IMG/VR virus record: IMGVR_UViG_3300028041_000005
Location: 1 to 28,374 of that record
Length of the DNA: 28,374 nucleotides
DNA from: a virus
Reading direction: 5' to 3' (one strand)
In this document: one piece after another, positions 3,346-28,374 of the stretch
Position numbering within the stretch: position 1 is the first letter of the stretch
Layout: the number at the start of each line of letters is the position of its first letter
Notes under the pieces: generated by a model
Databases searched by the model: none
Seen by the model: only the letters and a program-made list of their open reading frames with translations
What the model was told of the DNA's origin: nothing
Program-made: the position numbers and the translations under genes

Positions 3346-3675
3346 GGAGTGCGCTCCCACAGCTGGGCGAACGCCTCGTCCGCTGCGGCCTTCTCGGTCT
3401 CGCGCAACGTCCCGGCCGCGCGCCGGCGCAGCAGACGTCGCCTGCGGTCCGCCTCCCGACGCTTGTCGAGGATCTCCGGTCGCCAGATGTCCTCGCGGAC
3501 CAGGTGCACCGTGGGTCGCTCGCGCGGCGGCGTCTTCGGGTCGCTCGACACCGGCTGGGGGGTGCACGGGCAGTAGCCCACGGCGTAGCGGTCGTCGATG
3601 CTCGGACGGGCGGCGATCACTTCGACGCCCCCCCCCCGCGCCGCACTTGGAGCAGACGTAGCGGGGCCTAGACAT
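3342..3675 (-). pseudogene. Zinc-ribbon protein interrupted by a G10 tract (110 aa if restored)
   Basis: From ATG 3675 the frame gives MSRPRYVCSKCGAGGG, a zinc-ribbon knuckle, but after the run of ten G (plus-strand C, 3628-3637) it continues into a poor, Arg/Pro-rich frame. The good frame downstream (VEVIAARPSIDD... then YCPCTPQP, then a long charged helix) is offset by one base. With nine G the two join into one 110-aa protein with CSKC and CPC metal-ligand pairs. As sequenced, only a GTG at 3620 could restart the second half. The start lies 8 bases inside recT. Causes could be a sequencing error, a real mutation, or slippage making both forms. Confidence 0.65.
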
Positions 3676-5718: not shown

Positions 5719-5860
5719 AGCCCGTTTGGTGGCGCCTCGCTCGGTGAGCGCGTGAGCGCCACGCCGGACTGCGAGCGACCTGACGTGCCCTTACCGACGG
5801 CCGATTGGGATGCCGGTAAGGCATCGGCGCCGGCGACAGATCGCTCGCGGTCAGGCGTGA
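5719..5860 (-). other. Non-coding stretch rich in nested inverted repeats
   Basis: No convincing gene lies between the 29-aa microprotein and yqaJ, unusual in this tightly packed operon. The sequence has GTGGCGC (5729-5735) facing GCGCCAC (5756-5762). It also has a nested pair, GCGAGCGA (5771-5778) facing TCGCTCGC (5841-5848) around CTTACC (5790-5795) facing GGTAAG (5815-5820). With the strong hairpin next to it the whole 180 bases could fold as three successive stem-loops in the leftward transcript. It may be a regulatory RNA leader or a protein-binding site. Confidence 0.5.
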
Positions 5861-22171: not shown

Positions 22172-23752
22172 TCAAGCCGGCTGGCTCATTGGTCCCGTGC
22201 CGGGTGCGGCCGGCGGTAGCGGGTTGTCAGGGACGTCGGCCAATGGACCGCCGGAGATCGTCCGGGCGATTGAGCGCGCGGCCATCTCCGGACCGGCCAG
22301 CTCTGTCAGCCTCTTCGCCTCGTCATCGAGCATCCGTCGCCAGCGCTCGATGTCTTCGGGCGACGCCGGCAACAGCTCCCACGTCGCCTCGAGGGGCAGC
22401 CCCAGCATCTGGCGCAGCTTGCCGAGGGCATCGACGTGCTGCGACTCGGTCCGCCGTTCCGGGTCCTCCCAGATAACCTGGCCGCCGTCGCGCATCGCCT
22501 GGGCTCGCTGCTCGTCACCGCCCAGCCGCAGTGCCAGGCGCATAATCTGGCGCCAGGCAGCGCCCTTGTCGCGACCGTGGGCGCGGACCTTGTCGACGAG
22601 CGGCGCTTCCGAGGCCGTAATGCTCTCGCCCGACGGCGGGACGCTGCTCGGCATGTTGAGCAGGAAGTGGTACGGCGTGAACGTGTCGGTCGCGATGTCA
22701 GCCCGGATCTGATCAAGCTCCTTGACGTAGTTGTCGAGCGTCGCGACGGTGAACTGGCCGAAGCGAGCCGCCTCCTCGGGCGTCGTGATCCACCGCGTCT
22801 GGCCGGTGCGCGTGGCAGGCGGCGGGGCCGGCTCGATCGGCTCGCCGGTCACCTCGTCGACGGCAATCTCGTCTTCCTCCGGCTCGACGCCGGTACCCCA
22901 ACGCTGTGGGTAGGCCATCTCGTGCGACGTGACCGCCATATCCATCAGCGTCTTGTTGTAGTGGTCGATCCGCGATAGCACGGGCTCGTGCTCGGCTTCA
23001 GGCGAGCCATTGAGTCGCGGGTCGTTGGGCAGCACGACGATTGGCACCTCGCCCAGCGGGTTCACCATGCGCCCCGGCTGACCCGGTCGCTCGCGTAGCT
23101 CCCAGCGGGCGGGCTCGGTCGCGGCCACCAGGCGGTTGAGCCACCAGTCCATCTGGCTCGGCTCGCGATCGCGCCAGTGCTCGATGCGGTCAGGCAGGTA
23201 CAGGATGTAGAACCGGCGCGCGCTATCGAGGTCCCACCACGACTTGAGCGCGGCCTGGCGGAGGCGGCGGTCGCCCGGTGCGTGCCAAACGATGACCTGC
23301 GCCGGATCCTGGGGCGTGATGATCGGGGTCGAGGGATCCGCGGGATTGGGCTCGACGAGTACCGGGCACTCGCCCTTGACGAGCGCCTCGACGTGCGCCT
23401 TGGACGATTCAGAGTGCATCTCGTTGGCGCGCCAGATCCGCGCTGCCTCGGCGTCCGCGCCGGTCTCGCCCGAGAAGCGGAAGCCGAGCACGTTCAGCCG
23501 TTGGGCGGCGGCATTCACGATCAACTTGGAATGATTGGCGTGGAGGTAGTTCGGGAACATTTTGGAGACCTCCGACTCGCGCCACGCCTGACCGGCAAGC
23601 TTGCTGAGGTCCTGCGTTCCGCGGTAGTAGTGCTCCAGGCGAGTGAAGCGGCCCTGGCGGGCGTGCAGTGCCGTCGTCAGGCGCTCGAGCCACCACTCCG
23701 ACGAGCCGGCCGGATGGCGGGAACCACCACCACGAACGGCGGGCAGGGTCAT
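22172..23752 (-). CDS. Portal protein, SPP1 gp6-like (526 aa)
   Basis: ATG 23752 overlaps the terminase stop (ATGA). Family traits include LEHYYRGTQDLSKLAG, then PNYLHANHSKLIVNAAAQRL, an LGEVPIVVLPNDP strand before the stem, and a C-terminal block ADIATDTFTPYHFLLNMPSS followed by SGESITASEAPLVDKV. Twelve copies would form the ring at the capsid vertex through which DNA is pumped. The length and the place between TerL and scaffold are standard. A Pro/Ala/Gly-rich tail (PDNPLPPAAPGTGPM) ends the chain. Confidence 0.92.
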   Translation of the reverse strand: MTLPAVRGGGSRHPAGSSEWWLERLTTALHARQGRFTRLEHYYRGTQDLSKLAGQAWRESEVSKMFPNYLHANHSKLIVNAAAQRLNVLGFRFSGETGADAEAARIWRANEMHSESSKAHVEALVKGECPVLVEPNPADPSTPIITPQDPAQVIVWHAPGDRRLRQAALKSWWDLDSARRFYILYLPDRIEHWRDREPSQMDWWLNRLVAATEPARWELRERPGQPGRMVNPLGEVPIVVLPNDPRLNGSPEAEHEPVLSRIDHYNKTLMDMAVTSHEMAYPQRWGTGVEPEEDEIAVDEVTGEPIEPAPPPATRTGQTRWITTPEEAARFGQFTVATLDNYVKELDQIRADIATDTFTPYHFLLNMPSSVPPSGESITASEAPLVDKVRAHGRDKGAAWRQIMRLALRLGGDEQRAQAMRDGGQVIWEDPERRTESQHVDALGKLRQMLGLPLEATWELLPASPEDIERWRRMLDDEAKRLTELAGPEMAARSIARTISGGPLADVPDNPLPPAAPGTGPMSQPA

Positions 23753-25431
23753 CGCGGCCTCCCGGCCAGCACACGCGGCGGCTTGCGCGTCATCACTCGC
23801 GAACGTGCCTGGGGAGCGGTGAGCGCACGGTGGACCGCGAGCATCACGGCGCGTGCCGCCGGGATCCGCTGGCCCTCATCCGAGTCGATCGTCCAGCCTC
23901 GCGTGACCTCGTTGGCCACGACCCAGCCCATCTGGCGCGCGAGCTCGGGATCGCCGTCGTGCACGAGCTTGCCGTTGACCGCCGCCTCCTTGAGCGCCTC
24001 CGCGGCCAGCGCCATGCGCTGCGGGCTCGGCGGAATGTCGATCAGCGCGAGGCCCTCGCTGCGCAGCACGCTCGCCGAGCGTTCGAAGAACGTGCCGTGA
24101 TAGCCGATCTCGGGGCCGGCCGCCGGCACCAGCCGCTCATGCCCCCGGCGGGTCGTGCGCTTGGGCACCATGACGTGCGCCGGATATGCCTCGTGCAGCT
24201 GGCGCAGATGGCCTTCGAGCTCCTCGAGGTCGAGGTACTCGCCTTCGCCTTCGCCGCCTTCCGTCTGCTGCTGCGGGAAGTGGTCGACATGGGCCACGAC
24301 CTGGTCGCCCTGCAGCTGCGCGAGGGCCACGGCCGCGGTGCGATGGTCGTGATCGATCACGACGTCCGCGAAGACCGGTCGCGCAGGGTCGAGGGCGACG
24401 GGGCCGCCGCGCTCCGACCAGAGCGCCTCGGGCATCCAGCGCCGGGCCGAGCCGGAGCTGGGCAGGTTCCAGAAGAGCCGCTTCATGCGGTCCCAATCCG
24501 CGGTCGGCGAGAGCGCGTCGTCGACGATGCGGCCGAGGTTTACCCAGGTGGCATCGGCGTAGACGTCGCGCAGGCTGGCGATCAGCTGCTCGCGTGTCCA
24601 ATCGCGCTGCGGCTCCTTCGCCGGCCGCCGGGCGTAGCGCAGCGCCCCTGGCTCGTCGACGTCGAAGCGCTCGGCGACCGAGTCGGCGCCCTTGACGTAG
24701 GCGTTGCCGGTGAAGACGGCGCGGCCGTCCATCTTCGTCAGGTTGCCCAGGATCGTGTCGACGAGCTTGTGCCCGCCGTTGCCGGCGGTCCACAGCTGCG
24801 GCTCGTCGAGCGTCGCCTTCGTGATCCGCTGCCCTTCGCGTGAGCCGGCGGAGGCCGTGACGAACTCGAGCAGCGCCTCGGGCACGTCCATCAGGTACAT
24901 CCGCGTCCGACCGAGGTCGATCCGCAGCTCGTCGGCCGCGCGGCCGCCGCTGGCGGCGAGCATCCCGTACAGCGCGCCCCAGGTGTTCTTCGTCTGGCCC
25001 TCGCTGACGGCCGCGATCTGGATCCACGGCGGCGGACGCATGCCCGTGCCCCACGGCACCCCGACCGGCTGGCCATCTGCGTCCCAGCCGTCGAAGCAGA
25101 CGGGTCCGCGGAAGTCGACGATGTCCAGCGACGCCGCGAACGGCGACTTCCCGAAGCCCTTGGCCTCCTCGAGGTTCAGCCGGCGGTCGTGGACGTAGCG
25201 GCCGGTCTGCGGATCGAGCCGGAACCACTCGAGCACGCGCTTCGCCTGCTCGACGGTGTAGACGAGCGGCTGCTTTTCGTCGGCCGGAGAGGGCAGATAA
25301 GCGTAGGTCCAGTCCAGGACGAGCCATCCGAGCGTCGGGAAAGGCCTTTCGGGCGTCGCACGCCACCCACGAGGCCTGAATCGGGCGGATCGGGCCGTCG
25401 AGGGGCTCGGAGGGGCCATGACGAGCGTCAT
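23749..25431 (-). CDS. terL: Terminase large subunit (560 aa)
   Basis: ATG 25431 overlaps the small-subunit stop (ATGA); Met5 is an alternative. The N-terminal ATPase has a Walker A-type motif KGFGKSP at residues 91-97 and Walker B ending LDE at 208-210 (ITKATLDEPQLW). The C-terminal nuclease has the expected acidic residues: Asp356 and Asp360 in ADVVIDHDHRTAAVAL and an Asp in GWTIDSDEGQRIPAARA near residue 510. The enzyme cuts concatemers and drives DNA into the prohead. Together with the HNH gene nearby it suggests a cos-type packaging system. Confidence 0.93.
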   Translation of the reverse strand: MTLVMAPPSPSTARSARFRPRGWRATPERPFPTLGWLVLDWTYAYLPSPADEKQPLVYTVEQAKRVLEWFRLDPQTGRYVHDRRLNLEEAKGFGKSPFAASLDIVDFRGPVCFDGWDADGQPVGVPWGTGMRPPPWIQIAAVSEGQTKNTWGALYGMLAASGGRAADELRIDLGRTRMYLMDVPEALLEFVTASAGSREGQRITKATLDEPQLWTAGNGGHKLVDTILGNLTKMDGRAVFTGNAYVKGADSVAERFDVDEPGALRYARRPAKEPQRDWTREQLIASLRDVYADATWVNLGRIVDDALSPTADWDRMKRLFWNLPSSGSARRWMPEALWSERGGPVALDPARPVFADVVIDHDHRTAAVALAQLQGDQVVAHVDHFPQQQTEGGEGEGEYLDLEELEGHLRQLHEAYPAHVMVPKRTTRRGHERLVPAAGPEIGYHGTFFERSASVLRSEGLALIDIPPSPQRMALAAEALKEAAVNGKLVHDGDPELARQMGWVVANEVTRGWTIDSDEGQRIPAARAVMLAVHRALTAPQARSRVMTRKPPRVLAGRPR

Positions 25432-25928: not shown

Positions 25929-26025
25929 GGCTGGCGCTCCCAGATTCGTACAGAATGCGAGAGGGCTGCGGGTTGGTGATTACCACCGATCACGATTTTT
26001 GGTCCACCCCCACACCCCGGGTCGG
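25929..26025. other. 97-base gap between HNH and small terminase genes
   Basis: One of the longer gaps in the packaging module, with no gene. It contains GTGAT (25976-25980) facing ATCAC (25989-25993), then TTTTT at 25996-26000 on the plus strand, too short for a firm terminator. Since a cos or small-terminase binding site commonly lies beside these genes it may be one, but nothing proves it. Confidence 0.35.
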
Positions 26026-26376
26026 TCATCGCGCGGCTCGCGATCGACGACTCGGCGAGTCGGCCCATCGCTTGCGCGTGTTGCAGCCGCGACACAACAC
26101 CTGCGTCGGACCCAGCAAGGCACCGCCGTTGGCGAGCGATGTCACGTGATCCACCGTCAGGTCGCTGCTCGCGTGGCCCGCACGTCCGAAGCCAGGGCAC
26201 CAGTCCCCGTGACGGCCCCGCCAGTCGGCAAGCACCTGCGTCCGCAGCTCCCGCCAGTCGCTGCGGTCGTAGGCCGGGTTGTGCGCCGCTCGCTGCAAAC
26301 CCCGGTTGCAGTCCAGGCAGCGCGAGCCGTTCAGCGTCGGGACACCGCAGCGCAGACACGGACGCGGCCCCGCCAT
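26026..26376 (-). CDS. HNH endonuclease associated with the terminase (116 aa)
   Basis: ATG 26376 is used; a second frame over the same bases is a shadow. Two zinc pairs open the chain (Cys7-x2-Cys10 in PCLRCG and Cys20-x2-Cys23 in RCLDCN), followed by the HNH core: YDRSDWRELRTQVLADW, Cys60, His77 in VDHVTSLANGG, and Cys95-x2-Cys98-Asn in VLCRGCNTRK. Proteins of this type next to TerS/TerL support cos cleavage in HK97-like phages by making the nicks or stimulating the terminase. The phage likely depends on it for packaging. It is not a homing endonuclease, judging by location and strand. Confidence 0.88.
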   Translation of the reverse strand: MAGPRPCLRCGVPTLNGSRCLDCNRGLQRAAHNPAYDRSDWRELRTQVLADWRGRHGDWCPGFGRAGHASSDLTVDHVTSLANGGALLGPTQVLCRGCNTRKRWADSPSRRSRAAR

Positions 26377-26580
26377 TCACTTCTCGGTCCCGAGCTGCTG
26401 GCTGCCGACCACCGCCGGCGCCCAGCAGCCGGGACCCTCGCCCACGAGGGAGGGCCTCGGGCCGGGGACCCCTCCGCCGACGGGGGACCCCTCCCGGCGC
26501 AGGGGAGCCGTCCCGGCCTCGGGCATGGCGCCGCGCGGGGGGCCCTGCCGCGGAGGGGGTCCTGCCTGGGGCATACCCAT
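26377..26580 (-). CDS. Pro/Gly-rich ORF of uncertain reality (67 aa)
   Basis: ATG 26580 lies 4 bases after the stop of the HExxH gene, and its TGA is directly followed by the HNH ATG, so the spacing suits a gene. The sequence is very low complexity (MGMPQAGPPPRQGPPRGAMP, then SPVGGGVPGPRPSLVGEGPG) and contains direct repeats in the DNA. It could be a disordered protein or just a GC-rich spacer. I see no domain. Confidence 0.35.
   Translation of the reverse strand: MGMPQAGPPPRQGPPRGAMPEAGTAPLRREGSPVGGGVPGPRPSLVGEGPGCWAPAVVGSQQLGTEK
26464..26494. repeat. Direct repeat of GGGGACCCCTCC (period 19) beside a small hairpin
   Basis: GGGGACCCCTCC occurs at 26464-26475 and 26483-26494. Close by, CCCTCG (26435-26440) faces CGAGGG (26445-26450) with a CCCA loop. 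Together they make a GC-rich structured stretch between the HExxH and HNH genes. Function unknown; it lies in the packaging module. Confidence 0.5.
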
Positions 26581-26584
26581 CAGC

Positions 26585-27085
26585 TCACTCAACGGAGCCT
26601 GCCTGTGTGGTGTCCACGGCGACCGGGCCATGCGGCATCAGCGGCGCGACGTGCGGCGTGTCACCCGCGGTGGCCAGCTCGGGCAACGGCAGGCGTGGGG
26701 CGACGATGACCGAGAGCCGGTCGACCATCTTCTCGATGTGATCGCGGAAGACTTCCCAGGTCGCGTCGTAGGTGCCCTGGCCGACGTGCCGGATCCACGC
26801 GCCGAGTCGGATGACGTCGGTCGCGTCGCGGTGCAGGACGTGGAGCATCTCGTGCGCGATGGTCTGACGCTGCTCCTCGGGCGTCTCGATCCAGAACGAC
26901 GGGCCCAGCCAGAGCTCGGCCATCATCCGGCCGTCTACCGGCTGGATCATCGCCGTCGCCTCTTCGCGCCCTGGCGGCGGACCGTCGCGCAGCACGATCT
27001 TGTAGGCCTGCAGGTTCAGCGCATCGCGGACCTGGGCGATGTACTCCGTCAGCGCCTCGCGCCGCTCCTCGTCCAGCGTCGTCAC
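26585..27085 (-). CDS. Putative zinc metalloprotease-like protein with HExxH motif (166 aa)
   Basis: GTG 27085 overlaps the upstream stop (GTGA). The N-terminal helix (DEERREALTEYIAQVRDALN) and beta-like segment (MMAELWLGPSFWI) lead to TIAHEMLHVLHRD, an HExxH zinc motif at residues 78-82. A second acidic helix follows (DATWEVFRDHIEKMVDRL), which may carry the third ligand. Phage proteins of this shape are often annotated as metalloproteases, but the substrate is unknown. It may be an inactive or self-limited enzyme, or act on the capsid or a host factor. The last 30 residues are Pro/Ala-rich and disordered. Confidence 0.7.
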   Translation of the reverse strand: MTTLDEERREALTEYIAQVRDALNLQAYKIVLRDGPPPGREEATAMIQPVDGRMMAELWLGPSFWIETPEEQRQTIAHEMLHVLHRDATDVIRLGAWIRHVGQGTYDATWEVFRDHIEKMVDRLSVIVAPRLPLPELATAGDTPHVAPLMPHGPVAVDTTQAGSVE

Positions 27086-27351
27086 GGCGCGCGCTGACCG
27101 GGCGTGGCGGGGGCGGCAGACGCCGCTTCAGCGCCTTGCTGGATGGCACGCTCCGCTGCGCGCGCGCCGCCGACGCTCGACTCCCTGGAGAAGATGAAGC
27201 CCAGCACGATGCCGAGCACTGTGGTCACGAGGGCGAGCTTGGCCGTGCCCTCGACGCCCGGTGTATCCAGGAGCAGCAGCACAAATGAACCGATCAGGCA
27301 GAGCAGCCCGATGCCATACGTGTAATGTAAACGGATGGTATCGGTACTCAC
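27082..27351 (-). CDS. Small membrane protein whose 5' end is duplicated by a homing-gene insertion (89 aa)
   Basis: GTG 27351 starts MSTDTIRLHYTYGIGLLCL. Two membrane helices are visible: residues 11-30 (IGLLCLIGSFVLLLL) and 38-56 (AKLALVTTVLGIVLGFIF); a charged, Ala/Gln-rich tail follows. The first 18 bases recur at 28017-28034, where GTG overlaps the stop of the next gene upstream (GTGA), the junction style of this genome. So the original start was probably at 28034 and a plus-strand endonuclease gene has been inserted, with the repeat giving a new start. Holin-like topology is possible, but no lysin is nearby. Confidence 0.75.
   Translation of the reverse strand: MSTDTIRLHYTYGIGLLCLIGSFVLLLLDTPGVEGTAKLALVTTVLGIVLGFIFSRESSVGGARAAERAIQQGAEAASAAPATPGQRAP
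27334..27351. repeat. 18-bp direct repeat, left copy
   Basis: GATGGTATCGGTACTCAC; 17 of 18 bases match 28017-28034. On the minus strand it encodes the first six codons (MSTDTI) of the 89-aa membrane protein, including its GTG. Confidence 0.85.
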
Positions 27352-27374
27352 GTGCTCATCACCCGCCAATCGTT

Positions 27375-27380
27375 TACAAT
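27375..27380 (+). promoter_or_regulatory. Candidate -10 box for the homing endonuclease gene
   Basis: TACAAT is followed by six bases and then the ATG at 27387. Initiation at +7 would begin at or near the ATG, a leaderless message as is common in actinobacteria. No clear -35 element is seen. Confidence 0.45.
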
Positions 27381-27386
27381 GCTCGT

Positions 27387-28139
27387 ATGGCAAGACCGAC
27401 GGGCCCGCTCGCTCCGCGCTTCTGGAGCAAAGTCATCAAAGGAGAGGGCTGTTGGGAATGGCAGGCGTCCCTCGGGACACACGGCTACGGTCAGATCACC
27501 GTCGATGGTCGGCCCGTCCATGCACACCGCGTCGCCTGGTTCCTGACGCACGGCGAGTGGCCGCCCAAGGGGCTTCACTGCTGCCATCGCTGCGACAACC
27601 GACGGTGCGTCCGTCCCGACCACCTGTTCCTGGGCACGCACGCCGACAACCTGGGCGACATGCGGCAGAAAGGTCGCTCGGCCAAGCGTCTCTCTGAGAG
27701 TGCCGTGCTCGCGATGTACCAGATGCGTCACCGCTCGACCGCCGAGATCGCCAAGCTCTTCGGCGTCCACGAAACGGCGGTCAAGGACGTCCTGAGCGGG
27801 AAGACATGGCGGCATCTCTACGTGCCTCCCGTCATCAAAGGCGTCACGCTCCAAGAAGCTGCGCGCCGGCTCGGAGTCACGCGTAGTGGCCTCGGGGTGC
27901 AGGCGCACCGTGGCGTTCTCAAGACGTTCCGTGACCGCAGTTCGATCTACGTCAGGGAGGAAGAGATCGAGCGCTACAGACGCGAGCATTTGGGCCGTCG
28001 CTCCCGGCGCAAGCCTGATGGTATCGGTGCTCACTTGGCCTCCTCGTCGCAGCAGCCGCCGCCGAGCGGCCGAGTGGTCTCAGCTGGCCCCTGGCGGTCA
28101 TCGGTCGCCTCGTCGAGCGCCACGCTGCCCTCCGGGTAG
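27387..28139 (+). CDS. HNH homing endonuclease with two HTH segments (250 aa as open frame)
   Basis: ATG 27387 gives MARPTGPLAPRFWSKVIKGE. Residues 20-95 are an HNH_3-type domain: GCWEWQASLGTHGYG, VHAHRVAWFLTHGEWPP, then LHCCHRCDNRRCVRPDHLFL and GTHADNLGDMRQKGR. Residues 100-143 hold a helix-turn-helix (STAEIAKLFGVHETAVKDVL) and residues 152-200 a second, MerR/excisionase-like one (GVTLQEAARRLGVTRSGLGV), likely for DNA site selection. The enzyme would cut a target allele lacking the insert. From residue 211 the frame passes the right direct repeat and reads antisense to the neighbouring gene (about 40 extra residues), so its own stop may have been lost. Confidence 0.85.
   Translation: MARPTGPLAPRFWSKVIKGEGCWEWQASLGTHGYGQITVDGRPVHAHRVAWFLTHGEWPPKGLHCCHRCDNRRCVRPDHLFLGTHADNLGDMRQKGRSAKRLSESAVLAMYQMRHRSTAEIAKLFGVHETAVKDVLSGKTWRHLYVPPVIKGVTLQEAARRLGVTRSGLGVQAHRGVLKTFRDRSSIYVREEEIERYRREHLGRRSRRKPDGIGAHLASSSQQPPPSGRVVSAGPWRSSVASSSATLPSG
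28017..28034. repeat. 18-bp direct repeat, right copy
   Basis: GATGGTATCGGTGCTCAC; see the left copy at 27334-27351. On the minus strand it again reads GTG AGC ACC GAT ACC ATC, and the GTG overlaps the stop at 28031-28033. The next two codons (AGG CTT) still spell Arg-Leu as in the left copy (CGT TTA) despite different bases. Confidence 0.85.
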
Positions 28140-28195
28140 GCGCTATCCGGTAGGGGTGGCAACGCCTCGCCGGGCACCGACTCGAGCTCCTTCAT
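28031..28195 (-). CDS. Small acidic protein (54 aa)
   Basis: ATG 28195 overlaps the stop of the gene entering from the right (ATGA). A longer frame upstream would cover that gene and looks non-coding. The product is acidic and Pro/Gly-rich (MKELESVPGEALPPLPDSAY) and ends with a Cys-Cys pair (GGGCCDEEAK). No domain is recognised. Its stop overlaps the original GTG of the interrupted membrane-protein gene. The reverse strand is read by the C-terminal overrun of the homing endonuclease. Confidence 0.6.
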   Translation of the reverse strand: MKELESVPGEALPPLPDSAYPEGSVALDEATDDRQGPAETTRPLGGGCCDEEAK

Positions 28196-28374
28196 GCGAC
28201 GAACATCCGGCGGATACGCTCCGCTGCCGCCTCGATGGCCGCTGCCTCGTGCGCAGCCGCCGCGCCGCTCTCGGACAGCGCGATTACCTGTTTGCGCAGA
28301 GCCCCGACTTCGCCTGCCAGCGCCTCGCTGCGGGCGCGCCACTCGTCACGCTCGGCACGCATGGCCGCCAGGGC
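28192..28374 (-). CDS. Coiled-coil protein, C-terminal part (5' end off the window)
   Basis: The frame is open from the right edge to TGA 28192, which overlaps the next ATG (ATGA). The 60 visible residues are a helical, charged repeat (MRAERDEWRARSEALAGEVG, then ALRKQVIALSESGAAAAHEA, then AAIEAAAERIRRMFVA), compatible with a coiled coil. Phage proteins of this sort include small scaffold-like or DNA-associated proteins. Without its beginning no family can be given. Confidence 0.6.
   Translation of the reverse strand, partial: ALAAMRAERDEWRARSEALAGEVGALRKQVIALSESGAAAAHEAAAIEAAAERIRRMFVA

Follow-up and report, generated by a model that had tools for sequence, protein, structure and literature searches.

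A free-standing HNH homing gene has probably, though far from certainly, inserted at the start codon of a gene for an 89-aa predicted membrane protein in a phage, where the 5' codons of the target would now be donor-derived and the native start would persist as a remnant. The window analysed, a phage contig from IMG/VR, comprises 28,374 bases with 69% GC. Insertion at a start codon, accompanied by a rebuilt start, is observed as far as one contig permits, and the evidence comprises the anatomy of the site, synonymous differences between two copies of the target 5' end, the odd composition of the left copy, and recoded target 5' ends in two relatives of the HNH gene.

The minus-strand genes of the contig are tightly packed and are linked by 4-nt overlaps, either ATGA or GTGA, at 28192, 28031, 27082, 25428, 23749 and 8809. 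The portal (22172-23752), large terminase (23749-25431) and small terminase genes belong to one minus-strand operon, and the series of minus-strand genes is interrupted near the right end of the contig by the plus-strand HNH gene (Table 1). The target gene overlaps the next gene through GTGA at 27082-27085. Its 166-aa neighbour (window 26585-27085, minus strand) possesses a HEMLH motif and matches gp9 of Microbacterium phage Karate at 32%, and this relative also lies immediately before the terminase. A second HNH protein (phrog_144, HNH_5-like; window 26026-26376, minus strand) is encoded directly upstream of the small terminase gene and may serve in packaging instead of homing.

Table 1. Features at the insertion site, with positions in the 28,374-base window.
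Feature	Position	Strand	Remarks
HNH endonuclease gene, 250 aa	27387..28139	+	HNH_3 E=1.4e-13, residues 44-88
Target gene, 89-aa predicted membrane protein	27082..27351	-	No convincing family match
Upstream 54-aa gene	28031..28195	-	TGA stop contained in native GTGA
Right repeat GTGAGCACCGATACCATC, native 5' end of 89-aa gene	28017..28037	-	GTGA overlaps 54-aa gene stop; AGGAGG upstream
Left repeat, rebuilt 5' end and present start of 89-aa gene	27334..27354	-	GTG 27351-27349, GGTGAT before
AT-rich start of 89-aa gene, candidate donor-derived tract	27310..27351	-	45% GC; rare codons AGT, CGT, TTA
Open frame, 228 aa, antisense of HNH gene	27348..28034	-	Native GTG to TGA of rebuilt GTGA
Inverted repeat arm 1	27312..27333	-	19/22 match; codons 7-14 of 89-aa gene
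Inverted repeat arm 2	27371..27392	+	Contains TACAAT and HNH start codon

As the initial annotation had described, the HNH gene lies on the plus strand between two 18-bp repeats with 17 matching bases (27334-27351 and 28017-28034); extended to 27354 and 28037, the copies match at 19 of 21 positions, and nucleotide similarity falls off sharply at both repeat ends. The right copy had been proposed as the ancestral start, and AGGAGG, the GTGA overlap with the upstream stop and the habit of the operon all bear this out: the native GTG occurs in the context AGGAGG-CCAA-GTGA, with the Shine-Dalgarno sequence four bases upstream and an overlap of the kind present at five other junctions on the contig. 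The left copy contains a second GTG that now starts the 89-aa gene, and the accompanying proposal that the element occupies the 5' end of a gene yet leaves it with a start also holds. VSTDTIRL is encoded in both copies, by native and rebuilt codons that differ only synonymously (AGC/AGT, AGG/CGT and CTT/TTA). The sole differing base within the 18 nt falls at a third codon position, and protein identity outlasts the nucleotide repeat by two codons (AGG CTT versus CGT TTA, both R-L), an extension expected by chance in about 1% of cases as estimated from 6-codon families.

Direct repeats that match at 17 of 18 positions within 1.5 kb are not rare on the contig, where six spacings were seen against a mean of 0.53 per dinucleotide shuffle, whereas the exact repeat pattern occurs at only two places, with 0.04 expected. 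A chance likeness of two unrelated starts could appeal to the first of these figures, about 0.5 per shuffled contig, but it can practically be discounted because both copies start exactly at GTGA, flank one foreign gene and encode the same eight residues, which agree past the end of the nucleotide repeat.

The composition of the left copy is distinct from that of the rest of the contig. The GC content of the AT-rich tract lies in the lowest 0.05% of same-width windows, codons 2-14 of the 89-aa gene fall within the lowest 1.6% of 13-codon windows, and TTA, present in the left copy, does not occur among 4,977 codons in other genes. A fresh duplication would be expected to resemble the native copy, which the left copy does not, suggesting that it is sequence from elsewhere encoding the same residues. 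Judged from the sequence, the left copy looks like a 5' end received from a donor by co-conversion and the right copy like the native remnant, with a simple duplication less likely. Selection on the start region or on an operator could be another source of the low GC content and rare codons. The initial annotation had called the start both duplicated and rebuilt; the rebuilding is upheld, whereas "delivered" is a likelier description than "duplicated", given the synonymous differences, the odd left composition and the recoded 5' ends in the two relatives.

A plain duplication of the target would entail a staggered or double cut at the gene start, followed by fill-in or end-joining with an HNH segment, so that 18-21 bp were doubled and later drifted silently. 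The 19/21 identity across the repeat, the sharp loss of similarity at both ends and the third-position location of the differing base within the 18 nt are all consistent with such a history. However, it must treat both the R-L continuation of the protein and the AT-rich, rare-codon left tract as coincidence, the insert is without a transposase, and relatives of the HNH gene are without flanking repeats of such length. Plain duplication is thus considered unlikely, although it deserves serious weight. Were it true, GTGAGCACCGATACCATC in an uninserted close relative would run straight into CGTTTACATTACACG, whereas under replacement from a donor it would run there into AGGCTT-like codons.

The protein encoded by the insert possesses both the HNH and the DNA-binding domains that characterise a free-standing HNH homing endonuclease. 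In addition to the HNH_3 domain, it contains two helix-turn-helix segments (about residues 105-136 and 154-200) and matches HTH_17, a Sigma70_r4_2-like domain, phrog_1872 and phrog_59; no solved structure resembling it was found by sequence match. The initial annotation had placed the HNH gene and its repeats at 27334-28034, which is correct for the repeats but not for the end of the HNH ORF, which extends 105 nt beyond, to 28139. The frame is free of stops within the insert and crosses the right repeat into the antisense of the 54-aa gene, from which, together with the repeat, its last ~40 residues are derived. As recognisable domains stop near residue 200, this tail probably has no function, and the element may have lost its 3' end when the right junction formed.

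Domain and phrog matches revealed no transposase within the insert, and a transposon with target-site duplication was rejected on this ground and because the copies differ at synonymous sites. A group I intron was likewise rejected after an Rfam scan of 26000-28374 gave no intron family match. More broadly, an intron or intein-like element would accord with the similarity of the insert 5' end to what follows the insertion site, which has been discussed as a group I intron feature (PMC11855218), but here the insert is taken up by an HNH gene antisense to the target, which makes an element of this type scarcely credible.

An inverted repeat at 27312-27392 surrounds the rebuilt start with a 37-nt centre. 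Such repeats are expected at 0.05 per shuffled contig, and a second one is present at 5761, so that the significance is modest; this other strong repeat (window 5760-5860) has 22-nt arms with at least 19 matches. The repeat at the rebuilt start could fold on transcripts arriving from upstream (plus strand z -3.9). Two arrangements have been described for T4 homing endonucleases, one in which the operator is a copy of the homing site and one in which a stem conceals the translation start (PMC2988022), and by analogy the repeat is possibly an HNH operator or a start-sequestering stem, as in T4 I-TevI. A partial third copy of the start is arranged in tandem, with ATGAGCAC followed directly by GTGAGTAC (window 27344-27359, minus strand). 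Slippage or template switching after a simple HNH insertion, in which local copying made the second start, would draw on the 19/22 inverted repeat centred on that start, rare in shuffled contigs although matched by the one at 5761, and on the adjoining ATGAGCAC and GTGAGTAC. Local copying, however, does not bring in 18 nt with synonymous changes across a distance of 683 nt, and slippage is accordingly rated improbable.

The 228-aa frame antisense to the HNH gene gave no family match and is probably incidental. The HNH gene is missing TTA, CTA and TCA codons, but the chance of an open antisense strand is about 0.23, multiplied by one third for the frame, and its openness is therefore a hint only. 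The repeat spacing of 683 is 2 mod 3. It is conceivable, if doubtful, that the antisense element is harmless by design, combining recoded first eight target codons and their own ribosome-binding site with a stop-free opposite strand and a length of 2 mod 3. Given that strand and length, ribosomes from the native GTG would finish in the rebuilt GTGA and could restart on the target.

No relative with these neighbours was found in IMG/VR scans for the 89-aa protein and its 166-aa neighbour or in phage records. The terminase has one relative in GTDB, and 400 genomes scanned from the phylum of that relative gave only weak matches (E 8e-4 or worse), all within longer frames of 129-1194 aa. Relatives of TerL have upstream genes that differ from those here, and a DNA pattern for MSTDTIRL starts gave two matches, both to unrelated proteins. 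Karate carries the relative of the 166-aa protein before its terminase, without a homologue of the 89-aa protein. Since these searches yielded neither an insert-free relative nor a donor, we infer the native join from one contig.

As no relatives of the 89-aa gene were found, relatives of the HNH gene were examined instead. All 14 annotated relatives have the HNH gene and its neighbours on one strand, and in 8 of the 14 the HNH gene shares 1-4 nt with the start of the gene that follows, although these sites are not all independent. Alignment with empty relatives shows presence/absence polymorphism of the HNH gene at both the gp8 and the ligase sites. In Klebsiella phages RCIP0133 and 146039, the HNH gene ends within the ATGA of DNA ligase. 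The RCIP0133 ligase exhibits 10 differences from that of the empty phage 175028 in the first 36 nt and then none until nt 220; compared with carrier 146039, it has no differences in the first 41 nt and 23 differing sites in 330. In T7 and C5, the gp7.7 gene uses the RBS and start site native to gene 8, while TAATGG provides the new start for gp8. These two carriers are identical over the first 74 nt of gp8, whereas C5 differs from the empty EG1 at 10 of the first 60. The recoded tracts lie at 3411-3450 in RCIP0133 and 3390-3464 in C5. From these alignments, the recoded target 5' ends (36-74 nt) resemble co-conversion tracts through which the target acquires the 5' end of a donor. The premise of the initial annotation that free-standing phage HNH genes sit in intergenic spaces and leave nothing behind does not survive, given the eight overlaps with a following start and the rebuilt starts in T7, C5 and the Klebsiella phages. 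A scan for flanking repeats in 16 HNH relatives gave none comparable to the repeat here; those examined further were a 12-mer (Jada), an 11-mer (C5) and a 10-mer (RCIP0133), and the second copy of the C5 11-mer lies in the stretch encoding the TWRH motif.

In the favoured reading of homing with donor-derived codons, the element would have entered the opposite strand of a tightly packed operon at the start codon of the 89-aa gene, leaving the native start, its Shine-Dalgarno sequence and the GTGA overlap upstream as a remnant. On the other side, it would have supplied its own version of the first codons, so that the target retains a complete reading frame. The most likely route would be repair of a break with a donor phage as template, in which the element already stood before a related target gene. 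On the left, recombination inside the target gene would have transferred the donor 5' codons, and on the right, the junction would have closed just past the native start. We infer cleavage of this target by the HNH protein, the donor and the repair route. Against this reading, the comparator HNH genes are on the same strand as their targets and have no coding remnant of 18-24 nt upstream.

With both ends legible, the site would show how a homing gene can enter a gapless operon at a start codon. The HNH relatives suggest a general habit, in which the first 36-74 nt of the target are exchanged for a mostly synonymous version that keeps the gene working. A recoded 5' end could also guard against recutting, making it a natural counterpart of the recoded rescue used in gene drives.

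T7 gp7.7, located before gene 8 and with relatives in T7-like phages, shares with the present case a related HNH protein (found by search), insertion at a start codon, a native RBS left upstream and a new start. It differs in being on the strand of its target, so that the HNH gene takes over the native start position, and in having no coding remnant of 18-24 nt; here, the HNH gene is on the plus strand and the target on the minus strand. The HNH genes before DNA ligase in RCIP0133 and 146039 also accompany a rebuilt start and a recoded target 5' end (first ~36 nt), but they share the strand of the target and the native start has been replaced instead of kept. The T4 seg and mob genes are similarly free-standing HNH or GIY-YIG genes adjoining their targets, but they are described as intergenic, and the review text does not mention duplication (PMC2988022). 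The ShiLan domain is a hidden HNH in an actinophage methylase (PMC11855218). In the host frame, the first 11 residues of its insert are similar to the 11 that follow the insertion site and the insert has no stop, as in the present case, whereas the insertion is within the gene, the HNH is on the same strand and the host start codon is not involved (PMC11855218). Mobile ORFs of fungal mitochondria (atp6, atp9, cox2 and nad3 in Allomyces and Glomus) likewise bring a foreign replacement for an end of the target, while the native end persists as a divergent remnant, but this is the carboxy-terminal end, in mitochondria, and the enzymes are mostly LAGLIDADG (PMC3630166). The ShiLan element and the fungal mobile ORFs are the nearest published cases found, and the present site is a phage version at the 5' end and on the opposite strand. 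Related phage HNH genes seem to use the same kind of trick, and here the original start is still visible opposite the element.
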